Source: Alphaproteobacteria bacterium (GTDB lineage: Bacteria > Pseudomonadota > Alphaproteobacteria > Rs-D84 > NBLK01). From it: a stretch of DNA of 46,856 bases. The stretch's first letter is position 1, and every line of letters starts with the position of its first letter. Below the pieces are notes generated by a model, which saw only the letters and a program-made list of their open reading frames with translations, made no database searches and was not told where the DNA came from. The stretch lies in NCBI GenBank assembly GCA_016937865.1, contig JAFGVS010000031.1, positions 1-46,856 on the forward strand, written 5' to 3'. Shown in pieces: positions 4,902 to 42,400 of this stretch. The position numbers were made by a program, and so were the translations under genes.

Positions 4902-5936
4902 ATGAACATACTTTCAACAATTTATTTTGGCAATACAGTTCAAAATTACGCGATTGCATTTGGCTTGATTTTTATTGGCCTTTTTTTGGCAAGATCAATT
5001 ACATGGTTTGCCAAAAACATACTGTTACGATTGGCACAGAAAAGCGAAACCCGTTTGGATGATATTATTGTTGAAAGACTCGAAAATCCATTTGCCTCGA
5101 TCGTGATGTTAATGGGGTTTGAACTGGGGCTGTCCCAACTTGTATTGCCACAGGCGATTACTTTTTGGGCAGATCAAATCATTTTTATTTTAATGACATT
5201 TATTGTTGCGCAGGGGGTATCAGGATTAATAAACGCTTTGACCGAAGAATATTTTTCAACAGAAAAAGTATCAGCCTCAAGCATGCAGGTCGTTCCTGTT
5301 CTTCGAAAAGCCTTACATTTTTTCATTTGGACGATTGCTGTTATTATGATGATTAACCACGCGGGGTATAACGTAACCAGTTTATTAGCCGGATTGGGGC
5401 TAGGTGGATTAGCCTTCGCGATGGCATCGAAGGACTATATTTCAAATATTTTCGGGGGCGTAACGGTTTTTACAGATAAAACATTCAAGATTAAAGACCG
5501 TGTGCGCATTGGGGCATATGATGGAACGATCGAAGAAATTGGATTGCGCAGCACACAACTCAAAACATTAGATGGGACAATCGTGACCATTCCAAATTCT
5601 CAATTTACGGGGTCTATGGTTGAAAATGTTTCAAAAGAAACCGCCAGAAAAATAAAAATAAATCTGGGTATAGTATATGAAACCCCAATTAAAAAGATTG
5701 AAAAAATACAAAAAATCTTGGAAAAAATGGCCAAAGATAATCCAGACGTGAAAGACGATGTGATTGTAAGCTTGAATCAGTTTGGAGATTTTGCCCTCAA
5801 TATACTTTTCATTTTTTATGTTAAAAAAGGGGCAGATATTTTAAAAACCATAAACGATATTCATATTGAAATTTTAAAACAGTTTGAAAAAGAAAAAATT
5901 GAATTTGCCTATCCGACACGAAGAGTGATTAAATAA
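4902..5936 (+). CDS. MscS-family mechanosensitive ion channel
   Basis: GYNVTSLLAGLGLGGLAFAMASKDYISNIFGGVTVFTDKTFKIKDRVRI... TIVTIPNSQF. Confidence 0.9.
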   Translation: MNILSTIYFGNTVQNYAIAFGLIFIGLFLARSITWFAKNILLRLAQKSETRLDDIIVERLENPFASIVMLMGFELGLSQLVLPQAITFWADQIIFILMTFIVAQGVSGLINALTEEYFSTEKVSASSMQVVPVLRKALHFFIWTIAVIMMINHAGYNVTSLLAGLGLGGLAFAMASKDYISNIFGGVTVFTDKTFKIKDRVRIGAYDGTIEEIGLRSTQLKTLDGTIVTIPNSQFTGSMVENVSKETARKIKINLGIVYETPIKKIEKIQKILEKMAKDNPDVKDDVIVSLNQFGDFALNILFIFYVKKGADILKTINDIHIEILKQFEKEKIEFAYPTRRVIK

Positions 5937-6466: not shown

Positions 6467-6918
6467 TTAGAAGCAATCTTATCGAAATGTGTTTTCCAGT
6501 AATCTGGCACGCGCACAGGTCGGAAAGTGGAGCGGTTAATATAAACCAAAACGACATCAACGGTTGCCAAGATCTCTTCCCCGCGTTTAAAGGTATGGGT
6601 AAAGGTAATCGAAGAATTACCCCATTTCGTCATTTGGGTTTCAACGGTCAGGATATCATAAAGCTTGGCCGGGCTTAAATAATTCGCCGTGACTTTGCGT
6701 GCAACAAACAGACCATCATTTTCTAAATCTTGTTTAAATTGGCCATTCGTCGAAGATTGGTCTTCTTGAAATAAATGCCAAAGCGCAACACGGGTGCGTT
6801 CGGCCCACGTAATATAATTACCGTGGTACATGATACCACCGGCGTCGGTATCGTCATAAGCAACCCGAAAAGGGTAAAGATGAATTTGGTTAGAAAAAGA
6901 GCCGTTTAAATCAGACAT
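6463..6918 (-). CDS. ybgC: Acyl-CoA thioesterase, YbgC/4-hydroxybenzoyl-CoA thioesterase family
   Basis: FRVAYDDTDAGGIMYHGNYITWAERTR signature. Confidence 0.85.
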   Translation of the reverse strand: MSDLNGSFSNQIHLYPFRVAYDDTDAGGIMYHGNYITWAERTRVALWHLFQEDQSSTNGQFKQDLENDGLFVARKVTANYLSPAKLYDILTVETQMTKWGNSSITFTHTFKRGEEILATVDVVLVYINRSTFRPVRVPDYWKTHFDKIASN

Positions 6919-7298
6919 TAAACCTCTGTTAAAATTGTCTTCAAGGCTTTTAAATCAGATAAAACCGACGAAAGCGTGCCGCGTAAATCGGGATAAGTTG
7001 GTTTTGTGGAAACAACAGTCGTTGTGCGGAGGTCAGACGGATCTTCTCTGGAAGTCGTTTGAAACGCTTCTTGACGTAAAAACTTTTGAGCCCCTTTAAT
7101 GGTGTAGCCTTTTTTATAGAGTAAATCTTTGATTTTGTATAAAAGCTCAACATCACGGGTATGGTAATAGCGTCGTCCCCCATTTCGGCGAACTGGGCGA
7201 ATGCTTTTGAAATTTTCTTCCCAAAATCGCAGAATGTGTGTCGCCACATCCAATTCTTTTGAGACTTCACCAATAGACTTAAAAAGTTTTTCAGACAT
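6918..7298 (-). CDS. MerR-family transcriptional regulator
   Basis: KSIGEVSKELDVATHILRFWEENFKSIRPVRRNGGRRYYHTRDVELL. Confidence 0.85.
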   Translation of the reverse strand: MSEKLFKSIGEVSKELDVATHILRFWEENFKSIRPVRRNGGRRYYHTRDVELLYKIKDLLYKKGYTIKGAQKFLRQEAFQTTSREDPSDLRTTTVVSTKPTYPDLRGTLSSVLSDLKALKTILTEV

Positions 7299-12578: not shown

Positions 12579-14348
12579 ATGGCTAAATCATTCTCACTTA
12601 CACGACACGACATTGCGTTATTCAAACGTTTGTGGCACTTGTCTCTTAAAATTTATTTTCCAACAATTTTGTTGGCAGTTGTTTTCATGTTAATTTCATC
12701 GGGGGGGGAAGCATACGTACTGTCCTTATTAAAGCCTTTGTTTGACGAAGCCTTTATGGATCAAAATTATCAGGCATTGGGGTTGATTTCAATGCAAGTC
12801 ATTGGCGTATTCTTTTTGAAAAGTGGATCTCTCTATGCGCATACATATTTAATGGGAGTTGTTGGTCTCAAAGCGACAAAAGAAATTCAGATCCGAATGT
12901 TTAAAAAATTCTTATCTATGGATATGAGTTTTTTTGGTCGTAAATCCTTTGGGATCTTACAAACACATTTTGGTTCAGATGCAACAGCACCAACGGCCTT
13001 TTTAGAATCATTTTTTACACGCTTTATGAAAGATATATTTACGATCCTATTCATGGTCGGCTTGATGGTATATGAGGCGCCACAGCTATCTTTAATCATC
13101 TTGGTTTTATTGCCAGCTATTTCCCTGCCTTTGGCTAAATTTGGAAAGCGCTATCGTTCCGTTTTTGGACAAGCACTGGAAAAAACAGAAGAATTTGGAA
13201 CTTATTTTCATCAAATTTTACAAAGCATTCCAATTGTTAAAATATATGTAAAAGAGCGCAAAGAAACAGAGCGAGCGACTGAATATTTAGATCAAATTTA
13301 TAGGCTATCTAAAAAGAACTTAAGGGTAGCATCTCGTGTGCGCCCAACCATGGAAACATTGGGCGGGATAGCAATGGGAGGGGCGCTCTTACTTGGAGGC
13401 TATCAAATTACCGCAGGACTGCTAACAACGGGGCAATTTGTAACCTTTTTGTCCGCCTTATTCGGGTCTTATCGCCCATTGAAATCAATTTCAGGCACAT
13501 TTGTACAAATGCAAGCCGCGATGAAAAACACAGAAAGATTATTTTCTATTTTGGATGAAAAATCAAAAATTCAAGACAAAAAAAATGCGAAAGTTTTAGC
13601 AGGTAAAAAATTGGGACTGACATTTGAAAATGTCACATTTGGATACGAGGCCGATAAACCTGTGATAAAAAATATGTCTTTAGAGGTTAAGCCCGGACAA
13701 ACGGTTGCCCTTGTTGGGACATCGGGGGGCGGAAAAAGTACGATTGTAGGGTTGATTCCACGTTTTTATGATGTTGATGAAGGGGCGGTCAAAATAAATG
13801 GTCAAAACATTAAAAATTTCACAATGCAATCTTTGCGAAAACACATGGCCTATGTGACCCAAGATACGATGTTATTTGAGGGATCTATTGCAGAAAACAT
13901 TGCCTATGGGGCGACGGGAAAAGTCAGTCGCAAAGACATTATCAAGGCTGCCAAATACGCAGCGGCAGATGAGTTTATCGAAGGTTTTGAAAAAGGATAC
14001 GACCAGCCTGTCGGAGAACGTGGGGGACGTTTGTCCGGTGGGCAAAAACAACGCATTTCAATCGCACGTGCTTTGTTAAAAGATGCGCCAATCTTATTGT
14101 TGGACGAAGCAACATCTGCATTGGATACAAAGTCTGAATCGATTGTGCAAAAAGCATTACAAACATTGATGAAAAATCGGACAACAATTGTGATTGCGCA
14201 TCGACTTTCCACGATTATCAATGCGGATAAGATTGTTGTTGTGGATAATGGTATGGTTGTTGAAGAAGGCACACATGAGGCGCTGTTGAAAAAGAATGGC
14301 TATTATGCAAAGCTTTATCAAATGCAACTAAAAAAGAAAGCCTCATAA
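12579..14348 (+). CDS. MsbA-like ABC transporter (fused TMD-NBD)
   Basis: Walker A GTSGGGKST, signature LSGGQKQRISIARAL, Walker B ILLLDEATSALD. ATG at 12579 assumed. Confidence 0.9.
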   Translation: MAKSFSLTRHDIALFKRLWHLSLKIYFPTILLAVVFMLISSGGEAYVLSLLKPLFDEAFMDQNYQALGLISMQVIGVFFLKSGSLYAHTYLMGVVGLKATKEIQIRMFKKFLSMDMSFFGRKSFGILQTHFGSDATAPTAFLESFFTRFMKDIFTILFMVGLMVYEAPQLSLIILVLLPAISLPLAKFGKRYRSVFGQALEKTEEFGTYFHQILQSIPIVKIYVKERKETERATEYLDQIYRLSKKNLRVASRVRPTMETLGGIAMGGALLLGGYQITAGLLTTGQFVTFLSALFGSYRPLKSISGTFVQMQAAMKNTERLFSILDEKSKIQDKKNAKVLAGKKLGLTFENVTFGYEADKPVIKNMSLEVKPGQTVALVGTSGGGKSTIVGLIPRFYDVDEGAVKINGQNIKNFTMQSLRKHMAYVTQDTMLFEGSIAENIAYGATGKVSRKDIIKAAKYAAADEFIEGFEKGYDQPVGERGGRLSGGQKQRISIARALLKDAPILLLDEATSALDTKSESIVQKALQTLMKNRTTIVIAHRLSTIINADKIVVVDNGMVVEEGTHEALLKKNGYYAKLYQMQLKKKAS

Positions 14349-14447
14349 GTCAGTGCACGGTTGTTTTTTTCCGGATTTTCAATTTATATTGGACTTTTGT
14401 CTGTGGGTTTGTTAAAAAGTGCATAACCCTAAAACAAAGAGGTTCAT

Positions 14448-30874: not shown

Positions 30875-31048
30875 ATGGCCAAAAAAGATACAATTTTCGT
30901 TCGTATGATGAACAAAGCAACCGGCATGTATTATGCGATGAAGAAAAATCCGAAATCGGAAAATACTAAAGGTAAGATGACAATGCGTAAATATGATAAA
31001 AAATTACGTAAACATGTAACTTTTACAGAAACAAAAATGCCTAAATAA
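30875..31048 (+). CDS. rpmG: 50S ribosomal protein L33 (57 aa, not in ORF track)
   Basis: MAKKDTIFVRMMNKATGMYYAMKKNPKSENTKGKMTMRKYDKKLRKHVTFTETKMPK with upstream AAGGGG. Confidence 0.9.
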   Translation: MAKKDTIFVRMMNKATGMYYAMKKNPKSENTKGKMTMRKYDKKLRKHVTFTETKMPK

Positions 31049-31967: not shown

Positions 31968-32195
31968 CTCTTTAAAACAAGCCAAATGAAATTCAAATAA
32001 TTTAACAATAAAAACGTCAAGCAATAAAAAAAGTGAAATCAAAGTGGCTTTGCCACGGTCATGTTTAAAAGATATTTTTATTTCCAGTATCGCGTACCGC
32101 AGCGTACATATTGTACGTGAGGACACACAGATCACGCCGTAAAATAGATTTAAACAGAATTGGTTTCCAATAGGAACAGAAAGGAACTAATAAAA

Positions 32196-33017
32196 ATGTC
32201 TACATCTATAGACCAAGCTTTTATCAAGCAATTCGAAGTCGATGTCCATTTGGCTTATCAACAAAAAGGGACAAAACTACGTGCGACCGTGCGTTCTAAA
32301 ACAGATATCACGGGAATTTCCACGACTTTTCAAAAAGTCGGAAAAGGAATCGCATCAACAAAATCGCGACACGGTATGGTACCTGTAATGAACCTAGACC
32401 ACACACCTGTGGAATGCGCATTAGAAGATTTCTATGCCGGCGATTGGGTAGATGCATTAGACGAGCTTAAAACAAACGTTGATGAACGTTTTGTTGTGGC
32501 GTCTGCTGGTGCGTATGCTTTGGGACGTAAAACAGATGAGCTAATTGTAAACAAGTTGGGATCTGCAACATCTGCAATCGCGCACGCAACATCTGGTTTA
32601 ACCAAAGATAAAATCATGAATGCGGTGGAAATGCTAAACAGCAATGACGCCCCAGATGATGGTCAAAGATTCGGCATCATCGGTGTAAAACAATGGAGCG
32701 ATTTATTAAATATCCAAGAATTTTCCAGCGCAGATTATGTGGGGGAAAATTATCCATGGCTATCTGGTTCTGAAACACGGAAATGGATGGGCGTGATTTG
32801 GATTTTACATAATGGATTACCGGTAAACACAAACATTCGCGATTGTTTCTTGTATCACAAAAGTGCGATCGGACACGCCGTCGGCAGTGAAGTTCTAACA
32901 GACATTTCATGGCACGGCGAACGTGCTGCACACTTTATTTCAAACCGCATGAGCCAAGGGTCATGCCTGATTGAAGAAAATGGTGTTGTAAAGATCGAAT
33001 GCGATGAAGCTGCGTAA
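32196..33017 (+). CDS. Phage major capsid protein-like (T7-like podovirus type)
   Basis: MSTSIDQAFIKQFEVDVHLAYQQKGTKLRATVRSK..., ...GQRFGIIGVKQWSDLLNIQEFSSADYVGENYPW. Start set at the ATG of MSTSI after AGGAAC. Confidence 0.75.
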   Translation: MSTSIDQAFIKQFEVDVHLAYQQKGTKLRATVRSKTDITGISTTFQKVGKGIASTKSRHGMVPVMNLDHTPVECALEDFYAGDWVDALDELKTNVDERFVVASAGAYALGRKTDELIVNKLGSATSAIAHATSGLTKDKIMNAVEMLNSNDAPDDGQRFGIIGVKQWSDLLNIQEFSSADYVGENYPWLSGSETRKWMGVIWILHNGLPVNTNIRDCFLYHKSAIGHAVGSEVLTDISWHGERAAHFISNRMSQGSCLIEENGVVKIECDEAA

Positions 33018-33155
33018 ACTGTTTGAGCAACTACTCCCACAAATCCTCCTTGTCCTTGCACGGGGGATTTTTTTACGAAAGAAATAAGAAGTAAAAAAAC
33101 TCTATAGACGAAACGAGAGGATTACTTTCTCATAAAATAAAAAAGGAAAGATAAT

Positions 33156-33395
33156 ATGAAACAAGAAAATTTAAGTGTATTGGCCTACGCCAATGGCTTT
33201 ACATTATGGCATTATAAAGATACGGATACATTGCTAAATGTAACCGCATCTACATTTTTCGTGCCGGTGTATAACATTTTAAATGTTGGCGATATGATTA
33301 TGATTAATGCAGGCGCAGGGGCATCGGAAACAGCCGTTGCGTTTGTAAGTGCTCTCAGCAATTCAAGTGTGACACTCAGCACAATGACCCAATAA
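33156..33395 (+). CDS. Small phage structural protein following the capsid gene
   Basis: 79 aa between capsid and gp11-like gene; good RBS. Confidence 0.5.
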   Translation: MKQENLSVLAYANGFTLWHYKDTDTLLNVTASTFFVPVYNILNVGDMIMINAGAGASETAVAFVSALSNSSVTLSTMTQ

Positions 33396-33404
33396 AAGGG
33401 AACC

Positions 33405-33430
33405 AAATCCCCGCTTTTGCGGGGATTTTA
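33405..33430 (+). terminator. Intrinsic terminator
   Basis: AAATCCCCGC-tttt-GCGGGGATTTT. Confidence 0.75.
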
Positions 33431-33456
33431 TATATAGAACTATAAAAGGATTTTAA

Positions 33457-34026
33457 ATGGCTTTTTCATCACTCGATTTGTGCTCTCAAGCGCTTCTTAA
33501 AATAGGGGCATCTCCAATACATTCTTTCGAAGCCAAAACCGCAGAATCTAAAATCGCGAGCGCACTCTATGAATCCATAAAGCAAAATATGCTGTCTTGC
33601 TTTCCATGGACATTTGCAATTAAGACAGAGCGATTGGCAAAGTTGGCAACAGATCCAAAAGCGGATTTTGCCTATGCTTTCCAATTGCCAAACGATTGCT
33701 TGCGTGTGCTATCTGCGGGCGTAAACAAAAAATCAACAGGTCTCGATTATCAAATAAAGGCCACGCAACTCTTAACGACAGCAGACGATATTTATATCAC
33801 GTATCTAACGGATATTCCTGAAACAGATTTTCCGCCCTTCTTTCGACAAGCATTGGTTTCACGGTTGGCCAGTGAGTTTTGTTTGCCTCTCACGGAAAAT
33901 ACAACGCTGGCGACATTCTTATTAAAACAAGCGGAAGTCGATGAAAAAAAATCCCGCGTTATTGATTCACAACAAGAAACCCCACGTGCAATTTTAAACT
34001 TCCCCATGATTGATATAAGGGGATAA
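33457..34026 (+). CDS. Tail tubular protein A (T7 gp11)-like adaptor
   Basis: LDLCSQALLKIGASPIHSFEAKTAESKIASALYESIKQNMLSCFPWTFAIKTERLA...FAYAFQLPNDCLRVL. Confidence 0.75.
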   Translation: MAFSSLDLCSQALLKIGASPIHSFEAKTAESKIASALYESIKQNMLSCFPWTFAIKTERLAKLATDPKADFAYAFQLPNDCLRVLSAGVNKKSTGLDYQIKATQLLTTADDIYITYLTDIPETDFPPFFRQALVSRLASEFCLPLTENTTLATFLLKQAEVDEKKSRVIDSQQETPRAILNFPMIDIRG

Positions 34027-34098
34027 AAAGACCGCAGAAAGAAAGCAATGCTCTCATTTGGGGGGCTTTTTTAATAGCAAAAATCAAAGGAGAAAAAT

Positions 34099-34554
34099 AT
34101 GGGTGCATCAAACGTTGGTACGTTTGTCGACAGTACGATTGGTATGGTCGAAGGCTACCAAAATCGAAAACAGGAAAAAAAAGAAATCCAAGCACGATTA
34201 GACGCCGAACGTCAAAAAATCGCGCTGGAAAAAAAGAAAGAATATGTCCAAAAATCACAATATGACACCGAGCAGAGAAATCTATTAAAACGGGCTCTGG
34301 CCACACAACGGTCTCGGTATGGGGCTGGGGGAACAGCAGGGAAATCTTTTTCGGCCAAATCGGTACTCAAACGTTTGGATGGGGATGCAAAACGAAATCT
34401 AGAAAATTATAAAGAACTCAGTGATCTTCGATTAGAAAAATTAAACAACAATTTATCCGATGCAGAAACAAATGCGCTACTGGATAAAAAGAGATCAAAA
34501 TTAAATCAGCAGGTTAAATTGGCCAAATCTGGGCGAAAATTATTAGGGAATTAA
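34099..34554 (+). CDS. Putative internal virion (gp14-like) protein
   Basis: Gly/Ala N-terminus then a long charged coiled-coil; position in the virion cluster. Family assignment weak. Confidence 0.45.
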   Translation: MGASNVGTFVDSTIGMVEGYQNRKQEKKEIQARLDAERQKIALEKKKEYVQKSQYDTEQRNLLKRALATQRSRYGAGGTAGKSFSAKSVLKRLDGDAKRNLENYKELSDLRLEKLNNNLSDAETNALLDKKRSKLNQQVKLAKSGRKLLGN

Positions 34555-34565
34555 AAGGGGGAAAA

Positions 34566-35267
34566 ATGCTAAAAGTCATATACACAACAGATGGAATTCA
34601 AAAAGAGTTTCCATTTCCACATCGTATTTTCAAAGATGAAAATTTAACCGTTTTTTTAGAGGAAATACAAATGATGACGGGTTTTGTAATCGAAAACGAA
34701 GACAGCCTAAGTGGCGCTAACGTGGTCTTTAATGTCGCCCCGGAATCAGGAAAAGAATTAACCCTGATGCGTCAAATGCAGATAAAGCGAACTTCCGATT
34801 TTCAACCACAAAACCCACTTGATCTAACCATTTTAAATGTCGAATTAGATTATCAAATTGAAACGCTAAAAGATATTTCCGCACAATTGAGCAAGACGGT
34901 TTCACAAGGATTAATCAGTAATGAGTTGCTGAATTTAACGCTACCAGTGCCCGAAGCAGGAAAAGCATTGTTGTGGTCGCCAACGGCAGATTCCTTGGTG
35001 AATTCCGAAATTAATATCAGTCAAACCATTTTAGATTTAGAAACCGACATCGCAGAAATGGAAAGGCTAAATAATGATATTCGCGCATATCTGGAAATAT
35101 CTGGAGATGCCGGAATTTTAGGAATTGTGAATAATTTAATTGGTTTAATGGCTTCATATCATGTCGATGCTTTTATTACTTTCGGTCATATTTCAGACAG
35201 TCCAGATGAAAATCCCGCCTATGGTCTGATTACAGAAAGTGCAGGAGAAACGATTGATTACACTTAA
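34566..35267 (+). CDS. T7 gp17-like tail fibre N-terminal domain protein, short
   Basis: IYTTDGIQKEFPFPHRIFKDENLTVFLE...NPLDLTILNVELDYQIETLKDIS fits T7-type fibre N-domains; only 233 aa. Confidence 0.65.
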   Translation: MLKVIYTTDGIQKEFPFPHRIFKDENLTVFLEEIQMMTGFVIENEDSLSGANVVFNVAPESGKELTLMRQMQIKRTSDFQPQNPLDLTILNVELDYQIETLKDISAQLSKTVSQGLISNELLNLTLPVPEAGKALLWSPTADSLVNSEINISQTILDLETDIAEMERLNNDIRAYLEISGDAGILGIVNNLIGLMASYHVDAFITFGHISDSPDENPAYGLITESAGETIDYT

Positions 35268-35865
35268 TCATCGTAAAAAAGGTTTTTTGACATTTATAAA
35301 ACTATGGAATGATCTTTCAAGGTTCAAAACGCCACAACATCACAATCAAATCGGTGTTTGGTTAGAACAAATTTATCATGGATTGGATCGAAAAGGGCTA
35401 TTGCTAGCGTTTCGCAATAGTGGAAAATCAACCGTTGTAGCTCTATTTTGTGCATGGATTTTATATCAAAATCCAAACGATAGAATTCTGGTTGTTTCGG
35501 CAGACGCGCGTCTGGCTACGAAAATATCACGGCATATTCGACGCATCATAGAACATCATCCATTGACGGAAAAACTTGTGCCAAAGAAAAAAGAAGAGTG
35601 GGCAGGCTGTGCTTTTTCGATTGAAAGGTCTCAAAAACAACGCGACCCATCTGTAACGGCCTTTGGGATTACCAGCGGGATTACAGGCGCACGTGCAGAT
35701 GTGATTATTTGTGATGATGTCGAAATTCCAAAAAACTGTAACACGGAAGAAAAGCGGGAAGATCTCCGCGAGAGATTAGTCGAATTAGAATTTATTTTGT
35801 CACCCAATGGCATGCAAATTTTTATCGGTACGCCACACACATATGAAACTATTTATCAATCGTAA
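35254..35865 (+). CDS. Terminase large subunit, ATPase domain only
   Basis: Walker A-like LLAFRNSGKST, Walker B VIICDDVE, motif III IFIGTPHTYETIYQ, then stop. Start likely TTG 35254 behind AGGAG (ORF track start is GTG 35239). Confidence 0.75.
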   Translation: MITLNHRKKGFLTFIKLWNDLSRFKTPQHHNQIGVWLEQIYHGLDRKGLLLAFRNSGKSTVVALFCAWILYQNPNDRILVVSADARLATKISRHIRRIIEHHPLTEKLVPKKKEEWAGCAFSIERSQKQRDPSVTAFGITSGITGARADVIICDDVEIPKNCNTEEKREDLRERLVELEFILSPNGMQIFIGTPHTYETIYQS

Positions 35866-35878
35866 AAAGGAAAATAGA

Positions 35879-37315
35879 ATGAATAAAGAAGAATTGTTAA
35901 AAAAATTTGAAAAAGCGAAAGCAACACGACGTCCTTGGGAAAGTATCTGGGAAGAATGTTATCATTATGGATTGCCGCATGGGTCAGCCTTTCACGAAAA
36001 TCAAAAGATAAAATCAGATTTATTTGATTCAACGGCCAGCGATGGGGTAGAACAACTGGCAACAAATTTATTGTCTGAAATGACGCCACCATGGGGGGAC
36101 TGGTTTTCAATCCAATCAAATAAAGAAGAAATGAAAGAGGTGCTAGAGAAAAGCGAAAAAGTTCTAAAAAAACATTTAGAGCGATCAAACTTTTCGGTCG
36201 AAATGCATCAATGTTATTTAGACCTTGTCGCCATTGGAAGCGCTTGTCTATTAGTAGAAGAAGCCCCAATAGGCCTGTCTTCTGCTTTTCGATTTAAGGC
36301 GATCCCGATGCGGAATATGTTTGTTTTGGAAAATGCAACAGGGCGACCAGATACTGTTTTTAATACGGTTATATTCTCGAGCGAAGAATTTTTAAAACGC
36401 TGGCCGAATAGCATATTGGATGAGCAATCAAGACGGGATTTATCCAAAAACAAAGAAAATAAAATCGCGGTACTCGAATGTATTTATCCTATTTTTGAAA
36501 AAGGACAAATCAAAGGATATCGTTATTTGGGCTGTCCGATATCTGGTGTCAAATTATCTAAGGACACAGAATTTATTTTCGATAAAACATTGGCAACAAA
36601 TCCGTTTATGGTCTTTCGATGGATGAAAACAGCCGGGGAAACATACGGTCGATCACCGGTGATGAAAGCCTTGCCAGATATTAAAACAGCCAATATGGTG
36701 GTGGAGCTTATTTTAAAAAATGCCAACCTCGCGATCAGCGGCGTTTGGATGGCGGATGACGACGGGGTGTTAAATACAGAAAATCTGTCGTTAAAACCAG
36801 GCACAATTATCCCCAAAGCGGTCGGATCACAAGGGTTAACACCACTGCAAACGGCCACAGATTTTAATGTATCCGACCTGGTGTTAAATGATTTGCGTGC
36901 GTCGATCCGCAGAAATTTGATGATGGATAAATTATCACAGTTCCAAACAAAAACACCCATGACCGCAACCGAAGTTATTGAAAGATCCGGGGAAACACAA
37001 CGCGTGTTGGGGGCGATTTATGGACGTCTTCACGGGGAGTTATTAACTCCTCTTTTGATGCGTTTGGCGGATATTTTGCAACGCCGGGGAGAAATTCCAT
37101 TGCTTGATTTAAAAGGGGTTGTTAGTCATCCAGTGTATCGTTCCGGTTTAAATAAATTACGTAAAAAAGAAGAGCTACAAAATATAATGGAAGGTTTGAA
37201 TATTTTAAAAATGTTAAATATTGGTCCAGAAAATATTTTGAATACCGAAAAGACTTTGGCGTTTCTAGTGGATAAATTAGATTTGCCATCGTCTATTTTA
37301 AAGATAGAGGAATAA
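35879..37315 (+). CDS. Portal / head-to-tail connector protein (T7 gp8-like)
   Basis: RRPWESIWEECYHYGLPHGSAF...LFDSTASDGVEQLATNLLSEMTPPWGDWFSIQ...; ATG 35879 with AAAAGGAAA RBS. Confidence 0.82.
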   Translation: MNKEELLKKFEKAKATRRPWESIWEECYHYGLPHGSAFHENQKIKSDLFDSTASDGVEQLATNLLSEMTPPWGDWFSIQSNKEEMKEVLEKSEKVLKKHLERSNFSVEMHQCYLDLVAIGSACLLVEEAPIGLSSAFRFKAIPMRNMFVLENATGRPDTVFNTVIFSSEEFLKRWPNSILDEQSRRDLSKNKENKIAVLECIYPIFEKGQIKGYRYLGCPISGVKLSKDTEFIFDKTLATNPFMVFRWMKTAGETYGRSPVMKALPDIKTANMVVELILKNANLAISGVWMADDDGVLNTENLSLKPGTIIPKAVGSQGLTPLQTATDFNVSDLVLNDLRASIRRNLMMDKLSQFQTKTPMTATEVIERSGETQRVLGAIYGRLHGELLTPLLMRLADILQRRGEIPLLDLKGVVSHPVYRSGLNKLRKKEELQNIMEGLNILKMLNIGPENILNTEKTLAFLVDKLDLPSSILKIEE

Positions 37316-37316
37316 G

Positions 37317-37520
37317 ATGTTTGATCGAAATAAGGAGGCGCACGATTTCGTGCGCTGTTTCAATACGCCTGCCGGGCGAAAAGTTTTGTCTTATTTGCGT
37401 GGTATGACGGTTGAAAAAGCGATGGGGCCGGAAACACCGGCTCCGACATTGTATTATCGGGAAGGTCAAAAAGCCTTGGTCAAACATATTGAACATATGA
37501 TTGAAAAAGGACAGAAGTGA
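37317..37520 (+). CDS. Small phage protein, resembles Bbp19-like domain
   Basis: 67 aa; DFVRCFNTPAGRKVLSYLRG...YYREGQKALVKHIEHMI, directly after portal. Confidence 0.5.
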   Translation: MFDRNKEAHDFVRCFNTPAGRKVLSYLRGMTVEKAMGPETPAPTLYYREGQKALVKHIEHMIEKGQK

Positions 37521-37535
37521 AAAAGAAGAAATAAA

Positions 37536-37823
37536 ATGACAGAAATACCTTTATCCTGGTGGATCCAGGTTGTTGAAATCCCCGCATTAGCGGGGCTTTT
37601 TTTATGGACAAAATCTATCCGTTCACAAGCCGAAACACAACACGAACATCTACGCGAAACCTTGGAAGATCGTATTGAAAAGACGCGGGAGGTTTTGGCA
37701 ACGCATAAAGTCGAAGTGGCACAAAAATATGCCTCTATTTCCTATATTCGGGATGTCGAAAAAAGATTAACGGATCATTTGATTCGCATAGAAGAGAAGT
37801 TAGAAGGAAGGAAAAGAAAATGA
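37536..37823 (+). CDS. Hypothetical membrane-anchored coiled-coil phage protein
   Basis: 95 aa; N-terminal hydrophobic segment then charged helix; overlaps the next ORF start by 4 nt. Confidence 0.5.
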   Translation: MTEIPLSWWIQVVEIPALAGLFLWTKSIRSQAETQHEHLRETLEDRIEKTREVLATHKVEVAQKYASISYIRDVEKRLTDHLIRIEEKLEGRKRK

Positions 37824-38224
37824 TTCAAGATATTCAAAACGATAGAGCCAGTGCACAATATTTTACGGCAATCACACTGTATCATGAAGGATATGGCTAT
37901 AATTTAAAAGAGTTAGAAGCCATCGGATCTGTGATTAAAAATAGATTTGACTTTTATAGAAATATCAAACAAAAAAAGACGTGGGAGCAAGTGTGTTCCG
38001 ATGCCACAATTTTTAAATTTTGGAAGACAGATGATTGTATTGAAAGTCCAATTATCACAGATGCTTTTTTTGCCATGTGCTCCCGTGTAGCGGGGCGTGC
38101 TATTTCTGGAGTTCTAACAGATATAACCAATGGCGCTTTGCGTTATCACCATTGCACGGATATGCCGCATTGGGCACGTGGAAAAACAGGGCTGGAAATC
38201 GGTGATTTTATTTTCTATGATTAG
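37820..38224 (+). CDS. Cell-wall hydrolase, SleB-like
   Basis: TLYHEGYGYNLKELEAIGSVIKNRFDFYR...GALRYHHCTDMPHWARGKTGLEIGDFIFY. Confidence 0.65.
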   Translation: MIQDIQNDRASAQYFTAITLYHEGYGYNLKELEAIGSVIKNRFDFYRNIKQKKTWEQVCSDATIFKFWKTDDCIESPIITDAFFAMCSRVAGRAISGVLTDITNGALRYHHCTDMPHWARGKTGLEIGDFIFYD

Positions 38225-38259
38225 GCGATAATGTATTAAAATTAAAAAAGGAGTTATAA

Positions 38260-38787
38260 ATGAAGATTCTAAAAACAATTTTGGACGCTCTGAAAAAAGG
38301 ACTGTCTTCGCTAAAAGCCCTTGTTTCCAAAAACACGGCTCCTCCCAAAAAAACATCAACACCACTCAAACCCATTTTACAAATTCGCGGGCAAGATGCT
38401 TCTGGATCTGGAGCGTTTGGAGCCCCCAGAAAACGAAAAGACGGCTCTCGCTATAAACATCAAGGGATTGATATTAAGTCCAATCCCGGACAAAAAATTC
38501 GGGCGTTGAGCGATGGTATTTTTTTACGAAAAGTAGACCCATATGGGGATGGTAAATTTTCCGGTATGGTAATTAAAGATGCAGCGGGAAATGAACAAAA
38601 AATCTTTTATATTAACACGATCAAAAAAGTCGGAGATGTTCTTGAAAAAGGGCAAATTATGGCGATCGCGCAAGATGTTGCGGATGGGCGGGACATGACA
38701 AACCATTATCATTTTGAGGTTCGAGATAAAAACAAAAAACTCTTGGATCCGAATGATTATCTAAAAAAAGACTATAAATTAGTCTAA
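38260..38787 (+). CDS. M23-type peptidase-like protein
   Basis: RYKHQGIDIKSNPGQKIRALSDGIFL...GMVIKDAAGNEQKIFYINTIKKVGDVLEKGQIMAIAQDVADGRDMTNHYHFEVRD. Confidence 0.75.
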   Translation: MKILKTILDALKKGLSSLKALVSKNTAPPKKTSTPLKPILQIRGQDASGSGAFGAPRKRKDGSRYKHQGIDIKSNPGQKIRALSDGIFLRKVDPYGDGKFSGMVIKDAAGNEQKIFYINTIKKVGDVLEKGQIMAIAQDVADGRDMTNHYHFEVRDKNKKLLDPNDYLKKDYKLV

Positions 38788-38804
38788 ATCCTAAACGGAA
38801 GTAC

Positions 38805-38829
38805 AACGGCGCGAAAGCGCCGTTTTTTT
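38805..38829 (+). terminator. Intrinsic terminator
   Basis: AACGGCGC-gaaa-GCGCCGTTTTTTT. Confidence 0.8.
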
Positions 38830-38851
38830 GATTCAAAAAAAGGAGAAGTGA

Positions 38852-40699
38852 ATGCCAAAACAAACCTATACGCAAACCTCATTTTCACACGGAATGGTAT
38901 CGCTGCCCATTTTTGTGCGCAGTGATTTAGAGGCCCAAAGCAATGGCCTAATGACATTGGAAAATGCCTATGTAACACCAACCGGAGGCATAAAAAGACG
39001 GGAAGGGACACGTTTTATTGATACGCTTTTGGGGAAATCTCGCCTGATTAATTTCGGCGCGGCAAAACAAGAAGTTTTGGTTGTTTTAAGTAATCTAAAA
39101 ATAGCCATTTATGAAGAAGATGTTAAGGTTTTTGAGGCGACTTCGCCATGGCGCGAAAACGAAATTCAACACGTGCAATGGACGCAAAATGTAGACACAT
39201 TATTTTTAGTACATCCTGATTTTGCACCGAAGAAGCTCAGGAAGGCAAAAAATGTTTGGCAGTTTCAAAATTGGATATTTCAAACAAATATAGACGGATT
39301 AACCTTAGATCCTTTTTATAAATTTGATGATACGGAAGGCGTGTTGCTAACGCCACTTGGAACCAGTGGCACATTCATTGTAAACGTGTCAACACAGTAC
39401 TTTTCAGAAGAACATATTGGTCTAAAAATACGTCTGAACGACGGTGAGATGATTATAACGCAAGTTATTGATGACAGCAGCATTCAAGTGCAAAGTAGCA
39501 AGGATTTAATCTCCTTGGATCAAAGCAGCGATTGGATTGAATCGTGCTTTTCAGATCAGCGGGGCTGGCCGATTTCGATTTCTTTTCATCAAAATCGTCT
39601 GGTTGTTGGAGGTTCTAAATCCTTGCCACATAAAGTATGGATGTCAAAAACAGGGGATTTTTTCAACTTTGATTTTGGGGAAGGTTTGGATGATGAAGCC
39701 ATTACATTCAGTCTGCTCTCAGATCAGCGCGAACATATTTCAAGTGTGTTTTCAGGAACACATTTGCAAGTTTTAACCGCCCAATCGGAATGGATGGTCG
39801 GCGGTGAACCCTTAACACCCGCAACAATAAACGTAAAGAAACAAACGACCATCGGATCTCATTTGGACCGATATTTGCCACCTCAAAACGTAGAAGGGGC
39901 AACCATCTTTATTGCAAAAAACGGAAAAGAAATCCGTGAATTTATTTATGGTGAGGTTGAAAAAACGTATCAGTCCTATGACTTAGCATTGCTGGCAGGA
40001 CATCTCATGGAAACACCTGTGGATCAAACCTATAATGACGAAAACCGTAAATTATATGTTGTTATGGAAACCGGAAACATGGCGGTCTTGGTATTGAATA
40101 AAAGTGTCGGGGTTGCCGGCTGGAGTGTGTATAAAACACAAGGTAATTTTCAATCAATTGCGATTGTAAATGGGCAAACATATATCAGTGTCGCGCGGGC
40201 AACTGGGGTGTTTTTGGAAAAATTTGATGAAAGAGTGCACTTAGATTCAAGTATTTCCACCAAAGACGCAAATGTGGTTATCTTGCCACACTTAAATAAT
40301 CAAAACAGTGGATGGACAGGGGATGATTTTCGCTCTGGTGAAGATGTGGTTCAAGACAATAATTTAGGCTTGCCAGAAATCATGGAAACAACGGATGCAG
40401 GCTTAAATTATACCCACGTTATCGAACCGCTGCCAATTTTAAATCTAAATGGGGAAGTGGCAAAAAAATGGCGCCTAATTGAGTTGCGTTTAAGTCTGAA
40501 AAAATCTCATTTGTTAGAGCTTAGCATGCAAGATGAAACACACACAGTTCAGTTGGATGAGGACGTGTTTACAGGCAGCTATCGTTTGAAAGCGTTGGGA
40601 TATATTGAAGATCTAACGACATCTTTGTGGAAGATTGAAAGTAACAAACCGTATGCCTTTGAATTCTTGGGATATACCGCATTTATCAAAACCATATAA
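38852..40699 (+). CDS. Tail tubular protein B (gp12)-like / phage tail protein
   Basis: SFSHGMVSLPIFVRSDLEAQSNGLMTLENAYVTPTGGIKRREGTRFIDTL..., SISFHQNRLVVGGSKSLPHKVWMSKTGDFFNF, LTAQSEWMVGG. Confidence 0.75.
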   Translation: MPKQTYTQTSFSHGMVSLPIFVRSDLEAQSNGLMTLENAYVTPTGGIKRREGTRFIDTLLGKSRLINFGAAKQEVLVVLSNLKIAIYEEDVKVFEATSPWRENEIQHVQWTQNVDTLFLVHPDFAPKKLRKAKNVWQFQNWIFQTNIDGLTLDPFYKFDDTEGVLLTPLGTSGTFIVNVSTQYFSEEHIGLKIRLNDGEMIITQVIDDSSIQVQSSKDLISLDQSSDWIESCFSDQRGWPISISFHQNRLVVGGSKSLPHKVWMSKTGDFFNFDFGEGLDDEAITFSLLSDQREHISSVFSGTHLQVLTAQSEWMVGGEPLTPATINVKKQTTIGSHLDRYLPPQNVEGATIFIAKNGKEIREFIYGEVEKTYQSYDLALLAGHLMETPVDQTYNDENRKLYVVMETGNMAVLVLNKSVGVAGWSVYKTQGNFQSIAIVNGQTYISVARATGVFLEKFDERVHLDSSISTKDANVVILPHLNNQNSGWTGDDFRSGEDVVQDNNLGLPEIMETTDAGLNYTHVIEPLPILNLNGEVAKKWRLIELRLSLKKSHLLELSMQDETHTVQLDEDVFTGSYRLKALGYIEDLTTSLWKIESNKPYAFEFLGYTAFIKTI

Positions 40700-40718
40700 C
40701 AAAAAAAAGGAGAAAAAA

Positions 40719-40910
40719 ATGGAAAAAATTATTAACGGGGGCCTTTTAAAAGGCAAAAAAACATACATCACAACCACACTTGGATTGCTGTCTGCGTTAG
40801 GCGCCTATCTGATTGGAGAAATGGATCTCGCGGGCTTTTTACAAACCGTATTTCCGCTCGTTGGGATACTATTTTTACGCAAAGGAATCGCAGATCAATC
40901 ACAAAAATAA
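40719..40910 (+). CDS. Small membrane protein, holin-like candidate
   Basis: 63 aa with two hydrophobic segments; follows hydrolases and tail gene; AAGGAG RBS. Confidence 0.45.
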   Translation: MEKIINGGLLKGKKTYITTTLGLLSALGAYLIGEMDLAGFLQTVFPLVGILFLRKGIADQSQK

Positions 40911-40922
40911 AAGGATACATAA

Positions 40923-41616
40923 ATGACTGAAAGACCAGAGTTCTTACCTGAAAAGTTTTGGGATATGGAAAAAAAATGCGCCTCGTTTAGAAGCGATGAG
41001 TAAATCATACAAAGAATTGGAAAAGCGTTTTTCTCAAACACATCAGTTTTCAAAAGAAAATTTAAATGATGAAGAAAAAAAACAAATCTTAAAAATGTTG
41101 GGACATCCCGAAGCGCCCTCTGCGTATGAGGATGTCTTGGCTGATAAATTCCAAATCGATTCAGAGGCGAATGAAAAGTTGCATGCGGTCGGGTTAACAC
41201 CGGAACAAGTCCAAGTTGTGTATGAATTGGCGAATGAACGTCTGATGCCACAATTAGAAGAGGCCGAAAAAAACACAGAAAGTATGCAACAAAACTTATT
41301 GTTAAAAGATTATTTTGGATCAGAAACGGCGGTTGAATCGGTGGCGAAACAAGTGCTCGCTTATGCCGAAAATAATTTTTCACCAGATGTCGCCGAAGAA
41401 CTCTGTCAAAGCGCCAAAGGGGTGATTGGGATCTATGAAATGATGCAATCGAATAAAGAGCCCGGAATTTTGGCCGGAAAAGGCGAAGATATGGAAAACC
41501 TCTCTGACCAGTCACTCCGTAAAATGATGCAAGACCCGAAATATTGGCGTGAACAAGATCCTGAATTTGTTAAAAAAGTCAAAATTGGTTTTGAAAAGCT
41601 ATACGGCGAAAAATAA
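40923..41616 (+). CDS. Capsid assembly / scaffold-like protein, interrupted by a +1 frame change at an A8 tract
   Basis: Frame 1 MTERPEFLPEKFWDMEK joins NAPRLEAMSKSYKELEKRFSQTHQF... in the next frame at 40969-40976. ORF track shows only 40996..41616. Confidence 0.65.
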
Positions 41617-41621
41617 ATAAA

Positions 41622-41648
41622 AAAAACGCCTCCACGGAGGCGTTTTTC
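41622..41648. terminator. Bidirectional intrinsic terminator at right edge of virion module
   Basis: AAAAACGCCTCC-ac-GGAGGCGTTTTT. Confidence 0.85.
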
Positions 41649-41663
41649 TTTTGAAATCAAATC

Positions 41664-42098
41664 TTATCTATACCGCATCGCACGAAATTCTTCACGCGTC
41701 ACTTTGCCATCACTATTTAAATCCAAAGAATCGAAATGATCCTGTGCCATTTCTTCAGCACATACCATAAATTCTTCCTTAGACACGATACCGTCGTTGT
41801 TTGTATCTTTTTTTGAAAAACGTTTTATTTTTTTTTCTACATTGCAGCCGAGCGTTTGGGTCTCACACTTTAAAAACTCAAATTTTGAAAGTTGTTCATC
41901 TTTGTTTTTATCTTTATTTTCAAAGCTTTTCGCTTTTTTTCCCAAGTCACACTCAGAGTTCTTTCCCAGACGAAACTCTTCCAAAGTAACGACATCATCT
42001 CTATTTTTGTCATATTTGTGAAAGAATCCCCCTTTGGCATCCGCTGTTCCGGCAGATAGAATAAAGGCCATTCCAAATAAGATAGATAATAAACGCAT
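41664..42098 (-). CDS. Secreted four-EF-hand protein
   Basis: Signal peptide MRLLSILFGMAFILSAGTADA, EF loops DKNRDDVVTLEE, DKNKDEQLSKFE, DTNNDGIVSKEE, DLNSDGKVTREE. ATG 42098. Confidence 0.8.
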   Translation of the reverse strand: MRLLSILFGMAFILSAGTADAKGGFFHKYDKNRDDVVTLEEFRLGKNSECDLGKKAKSFENKDKNKDEQLSKFEFLKCETQTLGCNVEKKIKRFSKKDTNNDGIVSKEEFMVCAEEMAQDHFDSLDLNSDGKVTREEFRAMRYR

Positions 42099-42235
42099 TT
42101 TAACGTCTCCGTTGTCTTGAGTGAATGCCACAAGTATAGCGAATTTTAGACAAAGGGGCAAACAAATAAAAAGCTTGAAATCCTTGAGCGTTTTATTTAT
42201 GCTACGCGGGCAATAAATTAAATAGGAGTCTAACA

Positions 42236-42400
42236 ATGGCAGTTCCAAAAAAGAGAACATCTGCATCAAAACGTGATATGCGTCGCTCGCATCATGCGCT
42301 AAAGCCAGAAGCAATGAGCACATGTAAAGCATGTGGTGAAGCAATGTTACCACATCATGTTTGCCCAGCGTGTGGCGAACGTCCAAAGGCGAAAAAATAA
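42236..42400 (+). CDS. rpmF: 50S ribosomal protein L32 (54 aa, not in ORF track)
   Basis: [54 protein letters not shown]. Confidence 0.95.

Follow-up and report, generated by a model that had tools for sequence, protein, structure and literature searches.

A conserved podovirus-type virion module with a split terminase in the alphaproteobacterial order Rs-D84: a candidate gene transfer agent

Introduction

The only podovirus-like gene transfer agent (GTA) that we found published in the literature searched is FpGTA of Faecalibacterium, which packages 8.4-8.9 kb fragments (PMC12946183, 2026). As at the locus described here, the virion genes (TerL, portal, scaffold, capsid) form a podovirus-like operon of ~10 kb that is near-ubiquitous in its genus and lacks replication genes. 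It differs in belonging to the Firmicutes, in having two operons and a candidate small terminase, in that its particles have been shown experimentally, and in that no split TerL is reported in those sections of PMC12946183 that bear on it.

Within the Alphaproteobacteria, the closest described elements are RcGTA and the Rhodogtaviriformidae, which likewise consist of domesticated virion genes, inherited vertically and without self-replication, and whose clusters are scattered, as the present genes are in relatives. RcGTA is siphovirus-like, whereas the capsid and portal families of the present locus are podoviral. In a GTA-Hunter survey, neither Rhodospirillales nor Rickettsiales yielded any RcGTA-like cluster (PMC6821227). 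Two Azospirillum strains, A. lipoferum 4B and Azospirillum sp. B510, reportedly release phage-like particles with ~10 kb DNA, that of the 4B particles being described as random host fragments (Boyer et al. 2008, cited in PMC3899980); the genes responsible are not established, and RcGTA-like prophage regions have been proposed as their source (PMC3899980). Among viruses, the Pelagibacter podophages Hodr EXVC031P and HTVC010P have a homologous portal (30-35% identity), and Hodr EXVC031P also a homologous capsid (47% identity), but these are phages with complete ~34 kb genomes, and the annotated terminase of HTVC010P is one gene, in contrast to the split terminase described below.

Results

An intact virion module without mobility genes

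The window analysed here is a stretch of 46,856 nucleotides from a draft genome of the GTDB order Rs-D84 (GCA_016937865.1, contig JAFGVS010000031.1), and coordinates without a further label refer to it. Between 32196 and 41616 lie 14 contiguous intact virion and lysis genes, all on the + strand and most preceded by an AAGGAG-type ribosome-binding site, with rpmG (30902-31045) on one side and rpmF (42239-42397), then plsX and fabH, on the other:

32196..33017, +, major capsid protein (PF19821, 9e-76; 63-73% identity across the order's families)
33156..33395, +, conserved 79-aa protein (B79) 3' of the capsid gene (phrog_18004, 2e-11; syntenic in relatives)
33457..34026, +, gp11-like tail adaptor (phrog_394, 7e-46)
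34099..34554, +, gp14-like internal virion protein (weak profile match, 0.003-0.05; relatives syntenic)
34566..35267, +, fibre stub with a gp17-type N-terminus only (phrog_1640, 2e-7, residues 4-80)
35239..35865, +, TerL ATPase half, without nuclease domain (phrog_38, 1e-50, positions 269-458 of 760; same end point in 11 relatives)
35879..37315, +, portal, the head-tail connector (PF12236, 1e-100)
37317..37520, +, Bbp19-like phage protein of 67 aa, 3' of the portal gene (PF25181, 6e-12)
37536..37823, +, 95-aa protein with a hydrophobic N-terminus and a charged helix (phrog_29007, 4e-24; G004 orthologue 62% identical)
37820..38224, +, SleB-type cell wall hydrolase, Hydrolase_2 (PF07486, 4e-7)
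38260..38787, +, M23 peptidase (PF01551, 2e-9)
38852..40699, +, gp12-like nozzle (phrog_376, 7e-100)
40719..40910, +, holin-like small membrane protein (no family match; syntenic G004 orthologue 56% identical)
40996..41616, +, capsid assembly (scaffold) protein (PF05396, 7e-8)
41619..41650, no strand, terminator-like stem of 14 pairs at the module end (stem search)

The initial annotation, made from sequence alone, had described about 14 intact or near-intact + strand ORFs, most with a ribosome-binding site, between these same flanks, and had named capsid, gp11, gp12, portal, scaffold, SleB and M23 families; all of this held, the families by profile matches. Its gp14 rests on a weak profile backed by synteny, its gp17-like protein was confirmed only in part (the protein has 233 aa, and its match to tail fibres is confined to their N-terminal ~80-100 residues), and its terminase ATPase held, but the gene is not a whole TerL: it encodes 208 aa comprising the ATPase domain only. 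That the small membrane protein is a holin is an inferred role, and a lysis-related role of the 95-aa protein is inferred from its position.

No tRNA was found in the window, no integrase on its contig and no small terminase, in line with the initial annotation, which had seen no integrase, small terminase or tRNA attachment site, and there are no replication genes within the module. A search for att-like direct repeats flanking it returned none that was convincing. GC and GC3 of the module equal those of neighbouring host genes, and a single 185-aa ORF without family assignment occupies the gap between rpmG and the capsid gene.

Terminator-like stems are in excess between 31700 and 42450 (31 found against 10.4 expected, sd 3.0) and stand after the B79, gp11, M23 and scaffold genes; attenuation or antitermination control is one possible explanation. 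An EF-hand protein gene (41664-42386, -) lies between the scaffold gene and plsX, its longest reading overlapping rpmF.

The terminase is encoded by two genes

Relatives in the order carry, beside the portal gene or beside TerL, a gene of ~289 aa that corresponds to the TerL nuclease domain (phrog_38 positions 468-702, 2e-38) and is separate from the ATPase gene (positions 269-458). This order-wide split, and the presence of the ATPase half alone in the window genome, had not been seen by the initial annotation. The ATPase genes stop at one and the same place in all 12 sequences compared (the window and 11 relatives); genomes outside the order encode TerL in a single gene of ~480-670 aa between stops. 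Compared with solved structures, the ATPase profile matches residues 17-211 of the T7-type TerL 8dgc_E (1e-35), and the nuclease profile matches the C-terminal part of the same chain weakly (E 0.0009). Across 14 sequences of the nuclease half, 29 columns are invariant; they include the motifs W-D-P, V-E-x-N-G and D-D-G-x-D, and the acidic residues of these motifs are compatible with an RNase H-like site, the catalytic role being inferred.

The two halves are adjacent in G003, G004 and G006. In the family here called f4, the ATPase gene is separated from the portal and nuclease genes by ftsZ; in family f6 the intervening genes are dnaB, one for a two-HTH regulator and one other.

In the window genome no nuclease half was found with a single protein, profile A1 or phrog_38 as query, or in any frame of the window, and the same search as used on the window genome recovered both halves in G004, G013 and G026. 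The packaging motor is consequently represented by both TerL halves in relatives and by the ATPase half only in the window genome draft. We rejected a frameshift or truncation confined to the window as an explanation of the short TerL: 11 relatives share the end point, and relatives have a separate, conserved nuclease gene. The nuclease gene may have been lost by this lineage or may sit in an assembly gap; either is possible.

Putative small RNA and regulators near the break

At the TerL break three loci carry a putative small-RNA gene (L148, ~5270-5490; L019, ~14230-14410; L047, ~6860-7200), which was also observed downstream of the TerL ATPase gene in the f4 loci L037, L040, L041 and L043. 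It combines a sigma70-type promoter (TTGACA-N17-TATAAT) with hairpins bearing CU-rich anti-Shine-Dalgarno loops and then a terminator, with fold z-scores of -5.6, -4.6 and -3.6. A model built from four f4 copies matches 10 of the 60 order genomes, most strong matches lying just 3' of TerL. It has no match in the window genome, and the putative small RNA is absent after TerL in both the window and f6. An Rfam search of the window and three relatives gave no small-RNA match, the sole match being one tRNA, in L019.

The two-HTH regulator was observed beside plsX in G001 (L142:5551-6579) and beside TerL in f6 (L020:12486-13496). It is conserved between the order's families (35% identity, 1e-65), lies between the TerL halves in f6, and there is a possible candidate for a host regulator of the particle.

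Distribution, selection and inheritance in the order

Genomes of Rs-D84 are reduced throughout, with ~0.9 Mb in Enterousia (PMC12306168). Our sample comprised the window genome (G000; an 852-kb draft in 67 contigs, 99.9% complete) and 59 relatives, mostly of 0.7-1.1 Mb. Portal and capsid were each detected in 57 of these 60 genomes and the TerL nuclease in 55, after exclusion of a chance-like 35-residue match in G002 that had brought the raw tally to 56. Patchy presence, for which we had looked, was not what we found: presence is near-universal. Portal, capsid and nuclease were all undetected in G002 (80% complete) and in G055 (98% complete), the latter implying that the module is dispensable. 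Portal and nuclease were undetected in G001 (72% complete, of the window's genus), in which the capsid is present, the nuclease in G027 (70% complete) and the capsid in G015; G025 and G058 each have a second, divergent portal.

No integrase or replication module belonging to the element was found elsewhere in the genome: those integrases that the window genome has lie on contigs other than this one, and in G026, a relative assembled as one contig, the only two tyrosine recombinases are each >390 kb away from the cluster. Three further phrog_38 matches covering both domains were observed in G026 (C1 27531-29189, 51643-53049 and 845279-846718), apart from its split terminase pair at 908-913 kb; they are likely to be ordinary prophages or remnants.

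All genes for which rates were computed are under purifying selection, which is strong for portal and capsid. Between the window and G001, pN of the capsid gene is 0.086, compared with 0.127 for host plsX. For the genus with the densest sampling (up to 16 species), median pN/pS values are: capsid 0.15, portal 0.16, TerL 0.21, gp12 0.31 and nuclease 0.36, with 0.14 for host DnaB. Many pairs approach saturation at synonymous sites; among pairs with dS <1.5, dN/dS values of 0.03-0.41 were seen. Pairwise pN of module genes correlates with that of DnaB (0.67-0.92).

In the portal tree, the orthologous rows of f4 (11) and of f6 (19) each form a single group, and the tree also groups Ferrovibrio, three named Azospirillum species, a set including Magnetovibrio, and Magnetospirillum, the last together with Terasakiella and a Phaeospirillum record. 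Since the portal plays no part in assigning GTDB families, this agreement is evidence for vertical descent. The window, the phages, L050 and L051 stand on long or odd branches, and the deep branching order was not used as evidence.

The location of the module is not fixed. Relatives in the order run SleB, holin-like, scaffold, capsid, B79, gp11, gp12, gp14, fibre, TerL, with portal and Bbp19-like genes as a separate block; those outside it run portal, Bbp19-like, scaffold, capsid, gp11, gp12, gp14, fibre, TerL. The window order is approximately a circular permutation of the latter, with gp12 moved and the M23 gene added. In G001, plsX has no adjoining cluster and the capsid gene is on another contig, and host genes (ftsZ or dnaB) lie inside the cluster in relatives.

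Taken together, it is very likely that the module is domesticated and vertically inherited in the order. Three criteria for a GTA are satisfied: virion genes (capsid, portal, TerL ATPase, tail proteins and scaffold) derive from a tailed phage; the module has no genes for replicating autonomously or integrating, and no integrase lies nearby in the genomes examined; and inheritance is vertical under purifying selection. The criterion for Rhodogtaviriformidae, homologues of RcGTA head-tail proteins, is not met, as capsid, portal and tail match podoviral families, although RcGTA proteins were not compared directly. The initial annotation's choice of RcGTA and BaGTA as the obvious comparison must accordingly be qualified: the module is podovirus-type, unlike either.

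Related clusters in the class

A scan of GTDB genomes returned at least 572 portal relatives, with representatives in Magnetospirillum, Azospirillum, Ferrovibrio, Roseospira and Micavibrio; they extend across Rhodospirillales-type Alphaproteobacteria. When the class was sampled evenly, the portal was matched in 73 of 296 genomes, in 36 of them at >500 bits. A capsid gene follows the portal gene on the same strand in 42 of 58 loci, these being the loci with >=6 kb downstream of the portal among 80 fetched, and none of the 10 genomes examined outside the order has an integrase within 30 kb of the portal. Evidence for domestication is shallower here than for the order, and domestication of all these clusters is unproven.

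Azospirillum genomes other than 4B and B510 carry portal, Bbp19-like and scaffold genes in that order, one of them with a capsid gene downstream; no cluster was found on Azospirillum plasmids. The gene content of 4B and B510 is not in our data, and a link between their particles and the present kind of cluster is no more than possible.

Several side observations concern these wider loci. An S24-type repressor gene adjoins the cluster in G310 (L171:2291-2956), with a similar protein there in G233, and a GTA_holin_3TM-family gene (PF11351) lies downstream of it in G178 (L169:12291-12878); the G310 and G178 genes possibly hint at damage-linked control outside the order. A GenBank record from human faeces labelled 'Bacteriophage sp.' (MT838907.1, L192) encodes portal, Bbp19-like, scaffold, capsid, B79 and gp11 proteins of a cluster of this type and falls together with genomes of gut Alphaproteobacteria; its origin from a particle fraction is not established. 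No paper describing the present cluster was found in the open-access literature searched.

Discussion

We favour the reading that this domesticated, vertically inherited podovirus-type module makes GTA-like particles that package host DNA, and put its probability at roughly 0.62. A DNA-packaging particle fits because portal, motor, capsid, tail and lysis genes have been kept without mobility genes. The domesticated, GTA-like particle proposed by the initial annotation is supported for the order; particle production, packaging and DNA transfer remain inferred.

In this view, scaffold, capsid and portal would form a small head, and TerL would act as two proteins, the ATPase docking on the portal and pumping DNA and the separate nuclease cutting it. 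With no small terminase found, any chromosomal DNA at hand may be packaged. The gp11-, gp12- and gp14-like proteins and the stub fibre would make a short tail, the holin-like protein and the SleB and M23 hydrolases would lyse a minority of cells, and recipient cells would import the DNA through ComEC and DprA. ComEC is present in 18 and DprA in 19 of 21 order genomes, and the window genome has both; these proteins also serve natural transformation. The window species itself would use another nuclease, have lost cutting, or have its nuclease gene in an assembly gap. With only the ATPase half found it is possibly impaired, and we would not wager either way on whether the module is still functional there.

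One alternative is a domesticated particle with another purpose, either killing or decoy, or a head with little or no transferable DNA, as in PBSX-like elements. This is possible: it draws on the same evidence of conservation (presence and selection), and in its favour are the missing nuclease half of the window genome and the stub fibre. Against it, nearly all relatives keep both motor halves, portal and capsid, which a DNA-free head would not need.

It is also possible that, in the window species, a former GTA-like module is now decaying, with the nuclease gone, gp12 and scaffold moved and the remaining genes due to be lost in turn. The window draft, 99.9% complete, is without the nuclease, which was likewise not found in G001, and G002 is without detected portal, capsid or nuclease; against decay, 14 of 14 ORFs are intact and capsid pN versus G001 is below that of plsX. 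Such decay would be compatible with the GTA-like reading at the level of the order.

It is very unlikely that the module is simply a prophage, decaying or defective, that each genome picked up independently. All module genes are of phage origin, as this reading expects, but near-universal single presence (57/60), purifying selection and a portal tree that follows GTDB families contradict it for the order, as do the absence of an integrase or att site and the identical TerL split point in 12 sequences; a recent prophage is rejected at order level on the same grounds of presence, selection and tree. A phage satellite dependent on a helper would explain a compact module without replication genes, but satellites as a rule retain an integrase and borrow helper capsids, and the lack of an integrase with capsid genes kept, the reverse of that pattern, all but excludes it.

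A bolder version of the GTA-like reading would see a class-wide podovirus-type GTA family, ancestral in Rhodospirillales-type Alphaproteobacteria and of separate origin from RcGTA, in which the terminase of the window's order has become a two-protein motor, its gene opened by an anti-Shine-Dalgarno-type small-RNA gene and host core genes, and in which this cluster is also the source of the 10-kb particles with random DNA known from Azospirillum. As a whole we consider this rather doubtful, with the odds leaning slightly against it.

If the favoured reading is true, the class in which GTAs were first described would have two separate lineages of domesticated particles that carry DNA, the new one in groups that had been scored free of RcGTA-like clusters. 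Genomes of ~1 Mb or less, probably those of symbionts, keep ~10 kb of virion genes together with genes for DNA uptake, and since the virion genes are kept despite strong genome reduction, the particle must pay for itself. The two-gene terminase would offer a test case for an ATPase and a nuclease working in trans, and the cultured relatives Azospirillum and Magnetospirillum make the idea testable now.
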